From Chloroflexota bacterium (GTDB taxonomy: Bacteria; Chloroflexota; Dehalococcoidia; Lucifugimonadales; GCA-002694895), in NCBI GenBank assembly GCA_002711005.1, contig PAHZ01000028.1, positions 3,423 to 37,530 on the forward strand: DNA of 34,108 nt, given 5' to 3'. The stretch's first letter is position 1. Each line of letters opens with the position of its first letter. The notes beneath the pieces were generated by a model. That model made no database searches, was not told the origin of the DNA, and saw only the letters and a program-made list of their open reading frames with translations. Both the position numbers and the translations under genes were made by a program. This document shows, piece after piece, positions 7,474 through 16,236 of this stretch.

Positions 7474-7644
7474 TTAAGGTTTAAAAAAATTAATAATATT
7501 AGCTATAGTCCAAGCAGACGCAGCTATCAATTGAAAAAAATCACCTGCAGCAAATGATCCATAAAGAAAAATAGAAACAATCCAAGATGTGCTTGCAATC
7601 AACTGTAATAACCAAATCATATTAAAATTATTTTTAAAATTCAT
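7474..7644 (-). CDS. Small hydrophobic protein, two predicted membrane segments
   Basis: A 56-residue protein beginning MNFKNNFNMIWLLQ, with two hydrophobic stretches (roughly residues 9-27 and 31-52) and a C-terminal FFKP. I prefer the ATG at 7644, 11 bases after the FAD oxidoreductase stop, to a longer reading from 7680 that would overlap that gene out of frame. The tight spacing indicates co-transcription with the oxidoreductase. I do not recognise a family. It could be a small membrane partner of the oxidoreductase or an independent protein. Confidence 0.55.
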   Translation of the reverse strand: MNFKNNFNMIWLLQLIASTSWIVSIFLYGSFAAGDFFQLIAASAWTIANIINFFKP

Positions 7645-7655
7645 ATTCTTACTAA

Positions 7656-8783
7656 TTAACACGGACATTCTTCTCCGCAAGCTCCAAGATCATCTAAATA
7701 CAAACCTTCTTTACGGTATTCTTCTAAAAATTCAATATCAATATCTAAACGTTCACAAATTGCTTTGGATACAACTCCAAATCTCTGTCTGTATTTGTAT
7801 ATGAAGCATAAGATCAGATCTTCATGGCGAACTTGTGGTCCAACAAGAAATAATCCTGGAGTTTTTCTTGATTCATCATGTTCATTTAGTAAAACATAAG
7901 ATTTACTTTCATCCCAATCAAACAAATCCTTAACCATTACCAAACTACTTTCAAATCCAGTTGCTAAAATAGGGGGGGTTTTACTTTTGTAATCAGAAAA
8001 TATTTCATCATTTACATGAATATGATATTTGTTATTTATTAACTTTACGTCTGTAATTTTAGAATTGTCAACAATATTAATTCTTTCATTAGGCATTTCC
8101 TCTTCTAATCTGTCTATAGTATAAGGAGATAGATTTTCACTTGGGTCAGTTGTTCTTTTTTTTGTATTTGAATCTGGATTACTTTCTAATACAACAGTTT
8201 TTTTACCCAATCTACTTAAATGAATTGCTGCATCAATACCACTCTCATTACCACCAATGATATAAATTTGATCACCTTCAATTTCTTTCCAACTTTCTAC
8301 TTGGCTGTTATGGATACATAATTCAGAACCCGAAAATACTTCTGTATTTGGATATTGAAATTCTCCTGCAGCCCAAATCAAAAAGCGTGACTTAATGGTC
8401 TCTCCACCTTTGATTTGAATATTGAAATTATCTTTAGAATATATTACCTTCTCAACATCTGTGTTTTCTCTAATAGGCAATTCAAAATGTTTTGAAATTA
8501 ATCTCAAATATTTTGCGTATTCTTGCCCAGTTGGATGCTCTGTTTCAAGAGTAAATGCCGGAGACGTGCCAGATGCAATCGAATTAAGATCAATATGACT
8601 CCAATAATTAGTAGTAAACGAAGGAGTTATAAATCGCATTTCTTTTGGCCATTTATCAAAAGTATTTCCTACCTGATTCCTTTCAAGAACAATCATTTTT
8701 TCAATTCCAATATCTTTAAGCATAGAAGCTATCCCTATACCAGAGGGACCCGCACCAACAATAACAACATCATAATTTTTCAT
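7656..8783 (-). CDS. FAD/NAD(P)-dependent oxidoreductase with cysteine-rich C-terminal tail
   Basis: A 375-residue two-dinucleotide-binding flavoprotein. The FAD motif GAGPSGIG is at residues 11-18, with VLERNQVGNTFDKWP after the second strand. A second NAD(P) Rossmann motif, IIGGNESGIDAA, lies near residue 175, and there is an ATGFE motif. It looks like the YpdA/flavin-monooxygenase-like branch of the pyridine nucleotide-disulfide oxidoreductases, but no redox CxxC is seen in the core. Instead it ends ACGEECPC, a compact set of three cysteines that could bind metal or serve as a redox tail. It is divergent from a Fur-family regulator and nickel transporter and followed by a small membrane protein. 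The substrate is unknown. Confidence 0.75.
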   Translation of the reverse strand: MKNYDVVIVGAGPSGIGIASMLKDIGIEKMIVLERNQVGNTFDKWPKEMRFITPSFTTNYWSHIDLNSIASGTSPAFTLETEHPTGQEYAKYLRLISKHFELPIRENTDVEKVIYSKDNFNIQIKGGETIKSRFLIWAAGEFQYPNTEVFSGSELCIHNSQVESWKEIEGDQIYIIGGNESGIDAAIHLSRLGKKTVVLESNPDSNTKKRTTDPSENLSPYTIDRLEEEMPNERINIVDNSKITDVKLINNKYHIHVNDEIFSDYKSKTPPILATGFESSLVMVKDLFDWDESKSYVLLNEHDESRKTPGLFLVGPQVRHEDLILCFIYKYRQRFGVVSKAICERLDIDIEFLEEYRKEGLYLDDLGACGEECPC

Positions 8784-8832
8784 TTATTCTCAACTTTTTG
8801 CATCAGTTTGTATAATATACTTAGTTCGAAAC

Positions 8833-8862
8833 ATTATATAAGTATGAAAATAATACCGTCAA
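8833..8862 (-). promoter_or_regulatory. Promoter of the FAD oxidoreductase gene
   Basis: On the minus strand TTGACG (8862-8857) and a perfect TATAAT (8838-8833) are 18 bases apart, predicting a start near 8826 and a leader of about 43 nt before the ATG at 8783. It is one of the best promoter matches in the window. Confidence 0.65.
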
Positions 8863-14159: not shown

Positions 14160-14720
14160 TTAATTCTCTAATAATAATTGAATTAAATTTTTGTTCCTGT
14201 CCATTTCAAACCATATGTCCGGAGTAAGATTTTTCTTGTCAATCAAATCTAATTTATTGTTAACTAGATAAGTTGTAGGAATAATTTTATTTTGAAAATG
14301 ATTCGAATATATCCTACCTATATCTGTTTGAGAAATTTCCATTGAATAAAGTATAATTTCATTCTTGTTTAATTTATTTTCTAAATCTCTCACCGAGGAT
14401 TTGGCAGCTCTGCACGTTGCTCATGATTCTTCCCACAAATAAATTAAAGTGTAAGGTCTGTTACTGTATATTGTTTTAAAATCATTAGTTTTATAACGAT
14501 CTAAAAATTCTTTTTCAAATTTACTTTTTTTTGCATCATTTCTTTTTTTTATTGTGTTATATCTTTCATTTAAGTTAATTCTTGTAGAATTATTTGTTTC
14601 TACCAATTTATACATTTCCGAGTTTGGGTCTAGATTGTTTTGATTTGAATCTATACTGGTAGTCGAGCAAGATAAAGAAAAAATTAAAGTAATGAGAATA
14701 ATTTGCTTTTTTAATTTCAT
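14160..14720 (-). CDS. Putative selenoprotein: thioredoxin-fold lipoprotein with in-frame UGA (Sec100)
   Basis: Reading from ATG 14720, the frame is interrupted only by TGA at 14423-14421 and continues to TAA at 14162-14160, 186 residues in all. The N-terminus is a lipoprotein-like signal (IILITLIFSLSC; the lipobox is imperfect). After a polar linker, the protein reads TLIYLWEES-[UGA]-ATC-RAAKSS, which aligns with the thioredoxin FWAxWCxxC active site so that UGA replaces the first cysteine (U100-x-x-C103). The helix, the next strand and the cis-Pro motif KIIPTTYLVNN follow in order, so the thioredoxin fold spans the UGA. A SECIS-like hairpin lies just downstream. It is probably an envelope thiol/selenol oxidoreductase (TlpA/ResA-like). 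The alternative is a nonsense pseudogene. Confidence 0.8.
14383..14423 (-). promoter_or_regulatory. Candidate bacterial SECIS element following the UGA codon
   Basis: On the minus strand, 18 nt after the UGA, AAATC-CTC pairs with GAG-(A)-GATTT (14402-14395 with 14391-14383). This gives an 8-bp stem with a single bulged A and a GGU apical loop at 14394-14392. The loop starts 26 nt after the UGA. Bacterial SECIS elements lie immediately downstream of UGA, with a G in the first positions of a small apical loop at a similar distance (family knowledge). Confidence 0.7.
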
Positions 14721-14741: not shown

Positions 14742-14773
14742 TTAGAGGCTAGTAAATATTTACTAGCCTCTAA
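14742..14773 (-). terminator. 32-bp perfect palindrome, probable terminator of the M20 gene
   Basis: The arms TTAGAGGCTAGTAAAT and ATTTACTAGCCTCTAA form a perfect 16-bp palindrome. As minus-strand RNA it would be a strong hairpin about 65 nt after the M20 amidohydrolase stop, followed by TATTTT, and it lies just upstream of the selenoprotein start. It separates these two transcription units; an operator role is the alternative. Confidence 0.65.
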
Positions 14774-16204: not shown

Positions 16205-16236
16205 TTATTGTATTATTAATTTTAATAATACAATAA
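16205..16236. repeat. 32-bp palindrome upstream of the M20 gene (candidate operator)
   Basis: TTATTGTATTATTAA (16205-16219) and its exact reverse complement TTAATAATACAATAA (16222-16236) are separated by two bases. It lies 19 bases upstream of the M20 start codon, just behind the Shine-Dalgarno, and 10 bases before the 24-codon ORF on the other strand. It could be an operator governing both directions. Confidence 0.6.

Follow-up and report, generated by a model that had tools for sequence, protein, structure and literature searches.

A predicted N-terminally anchored, UxxC thioredoxin-like selenoprotein in an order of uncultured Chloroflexota

The locus

The window, by which we mean the whole 34,108-nucleotide stretch that was analysed, belongs to a Chloroflexota MAG of 1.27 Mb that is 79.6% complete. 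Its minus strand carries a frame running from an ATG at 14720 to a TAA, with a single TGA as its sole interruption (Table 1). A sequence-only reading of the same DNA had placed this TGA between an upstream half ending in TLIYLWEES and a downstream half beginning with ATCRAAKSS, and had located the cis-proline of a thioredoxin fold in an IIPTTYL motif further on; the coordinates, the flanking peptides and the position of the motif are all correct. A comparison of the window with three related genomes turned up no second in-frame TGA that is conserved on the sense strand; the other conserved in-frame UGAs were rejected as candidates, being apparently antisense shadows of ordinary genes or part of a shared tRNA-Trp region past a true stop. 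The gene stands alone, in surroundings that are kept in congeners, the adjoining M20 peptidase gene included. Standard annotation would truncate genes of this family at the UGA or split them in two.

Table 1. Positions of the predicted selenoprotein gene and associated features in the window
Feature	Positions	Strand	Remarks
Predicted selenoprotein gene	14163-14720	-	186 codons, followed by TAA at 14162-14160; probable lipoprotein with a UxxC thioredoxin fold
Signal peptide with probable lipobox (LIFSLS-C)	14667-14720	-	Cys codon 14669-14667, conserved in all congeneric orthologues
Predicted Sec codon UGA	14421-14423	-	First position of UxxC (U-A-T-C); TGA in 59 members, Cys in 14
Partner Cys codon of the U-A-T-C active site	14412-14414	-	
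Bacterial SECIS-like hairpin	14382-14402	-	8-bp stem, bulged A, GGU loop; starts 18 nt downstream of the UGA
cis-Pro codon of the thioredoxin fold (IIP-TTY)	14277-14279	-	Invariant in a 14-member alignment
32-nt perfect palindrome with T-rich tail	14742-14773	-	Terminator-like; between the M20 peptidase gene and the selenoprotein gene

The MAG holds two strain versions that are about 97% identical (contig G000:C11, which contains the window, against C18, and C15 against C17), with many N in C17 and C18. A second copy of the gene in the same genome was considered as a paralogue and rejected, as it lies on C18, the second strain's contig, which matches about 25 kb around the gene at 97% and a further 7.5 kb at 95%.

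The family in related genomes

The read-through protein, searched against 40 related genomes, had 15 matches, of which 14 contain exactly one internal TGA; a wider profile search extended to the order in full (250 genomes) and to a class-wide sample. Altogether 73 family members were read, all from one order, and the sequence-only claim that the UGA falls exactly on the first catalytic cysteine of a thioredoxin CxxC holds across them: the first position of UxxC is TGA in 59 distinct members, the window gene counted, and Cys in the other 14. No other residue occurs there among the 73, which were matches selected for their resemblance to a UxxC profile. Further TGA-containing matches came from other orders in the class sample. 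On the tree, at least 4 changes between Sec and Cys are needed and 7 are most simply inferred, from a short alignment with many open forks. Closer to the window gene, the three congeneric orthologues (L007, L008 and L009) share 30-59% protein identity with it and have TGA at the same column, which bears out the earlier argument that a stop at precisely this codon is no coincidence.

Most of the machinery for selenocysteine is present in the window MAG. The selB gene scores above the curated cut-off, in two copies (97.9% identical) because the two strain versions inflate copy numbers; selD also scores above its cut-off and is itself a selenoprotein gene with the Sec site SGGUGSK (L025, G000:C5:10050-10979); and selC is represented by a tRNA-Sec(UCA) of 95 nt. 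Of the four genes that the sequence-only reading had named for a search, only selA was not found in this 79.6%-complete assembly. Since selA is above cut-off in 32 of the 40 genomes searched, including three of the four congeners, incompleteness of the MAG is the likely cause. Neither outcome that had been named as telling against a selenoprotein was seen: selB and selC are in place, and the homologues show neither two independent genes nor a decayed frame.

The thioredoxin fold of the protein is well supported by structure prediction and by profile comparison. AlphaFold models a thioredoxin domain with confidence (pLDDT above 90 for most of its length), Foldseek relates it to thioredoxins with probability 1.00 and a TM-score, normalised by target, of about 0.7, and profile matches to PDB thioredoxins reach E values down to 1.6e-13.

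Two kinds of anchor precede this domain. Most of the order has two membrane helices, and the common form there mostly shows two N-terminal hydrophobic stretches, with an upstream half of different sequence; the window gene and its congeneric orthologues have a probable lipobox instead. The lipobox of the window protein is non-canonical at the -3 residue, and lspA is present in the MAG; the protein may be lipidated at the lipobox cysteine. Both forms occur in three congeners (G002, G003 and G004), only the membrane form was found in a fourth genome (G001), and only the lipoprotein form in the window MAG. In two genomes of another family (G035 and G229), two UGA-containing members stand in tandem (L011:1243-1791 and 1778-2377; L059); the start of the second resembles a lipobox (TILGC), as though the lipoprotein form had two separate origins.

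The hairpin behind the UGA and the reading of the codon

The hairpin that had been proposed from the window alone, which starts 18 nt behind the UGA and has an 8-bp stem, a bulged A and a GGU loop, is recovered by RNAfold, but its energy of -4.2 kcal/mol is weak (z -0.85 against shuffles) and falls short of the -7.5 kcal/mol or lower demanded in published bacterial SECIS prediction (PMC13188914). That cut-off is a prediction filter and no part of the mechanism; 16 of the 59 Sec genes reach it, the strongest with hairpins of -12 to -17 kcal/mol. When judged by SECIS geometry (a stem of at least 4 bp and an apical loop of 3-9 nt that lies 16-37 nt from the UGA, with G in the first two loop positions), the window hairpin fits, with its GGU loop, a UGA-to-loop distance of 26 nt and 8 bp. 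The same geometry is found in 50 of the 59 Sec genes and also in 8 of the 14 Cys genes, and covariation is therefore the stronger evidence. Alone, without its relatives, the window hairpin would not convince.

In a gapless alignment of 13 members behind the UGA, in which columns 23-29 pair with columns 35-41, 87.9% of cells are paired and 18 are compensatory, with both sides changed; none of 500 shuffles scored as high, slid registers gave at most 48%, and RNAalifold, unprompted, recovered six of the seven stem pairs. Across all 59 Sec genes the stem is 81.4% paired against 68.1% when shuffled (0 of 1000 as high), whereas the 14 Cys genes, with 54.1% paired against 54.9%, show no covariation, both comparisons being uncorrected for relatedness. 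The SECIS-like role assigned to the hairpin thus gains support from a stem whose covariation is confined to the Sec genes, and the repeated switches between Sec and Cys within one family provide a clean natural experiment, in which the stem loses covariation where Cys replaces Sec. The loop carries GU in 56 of the 59 Sec genes, a dinucleotide that also belongs to a conserved Val codon. Some Sec members (L106, L110, L100 and L108) lack the stem that the others share behind the UGA; such members, for example L106 and L110, may use a different SECIS, if they are functional.

Taken with the conserved UGA, the exchange of Sec and Cys at one column and the thioredoxin fold, all computed here, these results make it almost certain that the locus is a selenoprotein gene, in which SelB and the hairpin would insert Sec at the UGA of a thioredoxin that is anchored at its N-terminus and has the active site Sec-Ala-Thr-Cys. 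A bare reading of the frame does show an in-frame stop, in a MAG that mixes strains, as would be expected from a nonsense mutation or an assembly error in a decaying gene. Against this, the second strain's contig (L016), the three congeneric orthologues and 59 members overall all share this TGA, the downstream half stays in frame and keeps the residues of the active site and of the fold, and pN among the three closest orthologues is about 0.22-0.30 both before and after the UGA. Because the TGA column is conserved and divergence is alike on both sides of it, a pseudogene or a sequencing error is excluded, and we give decay practically no weight.

It is also extremely unlikely that the UGA is read without selenium, either through a reassigned code that gives Trp or through near-cognate read-through that gives Cys or Trp. 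The AT-rich window seldom uses UGA as a stop, which would suit such a reading: that UGA ends genes normally elsewhere, as the sequence-only reading had it, is true, but of only 2 of the 24 ATG-initiated ORFs of at least 150 aa. The tRNA-Trp nevertheless has the anticodon CCA, as had been noted, the column swaps with Cys only and never with Trp among the members read, the SECIS-like hairpin covaries solely where the codon is UGA, and the Sec machinery is present. A selenium-dependent switch, by which low selenium would yield a truncated 99-residue lipoprotein with a role of its own and no redox site, is very improbable for other reasons. In its favour, the upstream half carries a lipobox and, in the AlphaFold model, a long helical region (residues 34-75), and the three closest orthologues conserve it (pN 0.22-0.26). 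Its sequence differs in the membrane form of the order, however, which makes a shared role of the truncated product unlikely, and failed Sec insertion usually leaves a truncated by-product.

Function, known relatives and genomic setting

For the selenoprotein reading we propose a model in which the hairpin behind the UGA would recruit SelB carrying Sec-tRNA-Sec(UCA), and the selenocysteine so delivered would be inserted at this codon to give the anchored thioredoxin. With its signal sequence and probable lipobox, the thioredoxin domain would sit at the outer surface of the cytoplasmic membrane. There, disulfides or peroxides could be attacked by the Sec selenolate, and the bond resolved by the partner Cys. 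We therefore envisage the family as extracytoplasmic thiol-disulfide or peroxide reductases with Sec as the attacking residue. No DsbD/CcdA or VKOR electron partner was found in the window MAG, and inspection by eye of eight loci gave no obvious recurrent partner gene near the homologues and no neighbour that hints at a substrate.

Knowledge of UxxC thioredoxin-like selenoproteins dates from the Sargasso Sea and GOS surveys (PMC1088965, PMC2398784; catalogue PMC13188914). The window gene had been put forward as a new selenoprotein; what is new is the anchored subfamily, and the kind to which it belongs was already described. Its nearest likeness is to the Trx UxxC selenoproteins (PF00085, a row in PMC13188914), with which it shares the thioredoxin fold, Sec first in UxxC and a bacterial SECIS just downstream; a typical Trx is soluble and about 105 aa long, whereas the anchored family adds two membrane helices or a lipobox. 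The window protein stays below the PF00085 gathering cut-off (17.8 vs 23.5 bits), and 13 of 14 members match that model at E up to 0.01. The metagenomic GOS_C family (NF045500; PMC2398784) is likewise marine, UxxC and thioredoxin-like in fold, and SaoT (NF040730) and the thiol-disulfide isomerase-like selenoproteins (cd02966 / PF13905) are also UxxC thioredoxin-like oxidoreductases; neither the GOS_C nor the SaoT model matched any of five members at E up to 10, and PF13905 reaches the window protein at an E of only 0.017, below its cut-off. DsbE/ResA/TlpA proteins (CxxC) share the anchored extracytoplasmic thioredoxin design, but matches to them lie far below cut-offs and the anchored family has Sec in place of Cys.

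Among NCBIfam models, selenoprotein-specific ones included, none matches the family above cut-off, and in the 2026 catalogue (PMC13188914) no row naming an anchored Chloroflexota family was found. Some members may be counted there within the broad rows for Trx or Trx-like proteins, and an unnamed deposit of the subfamily may exist in nr. In the literature covered, nothing relevant on selenoproteins of SAR202/Chloroflexota turned up. Our results add an order-wide selenoprotein family in uncultured Chloroflexota, and point to the use of selenium in an anchored, probably extracytoplasmic redox protein. It is conceivable, although we would lean against it, that this uncatalogued anchored UxxC family is ancestral to the order and serves as its main extracytoplasmic reductase without DsbD/CcdA, the lipoprotein paralogue having come from duplication in two lineages; if so, thiol or peroxide reduction outside the cytoplasm would be carried out chiefly by this family in one large Chloroflexota order.

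The surroundings of the gene show some further features. The palindrome upstream of it is 97% conserved in one congener (G004), and a second, different perfect 32-bp palindrome lies at 16205-16236, so that the pair flanks the M20 peptidase gene. Elsewhere in the window, close to tRNA-Trp, a segment of about 1.35 kb (7498-8849) encoding an FAD/NAD(P) oxidoreductase (PF13738) with the C-terminus CGEECPC is missing from the second strain's contig and without a match in the same relative (G004), and represents a strain-variable insertion.
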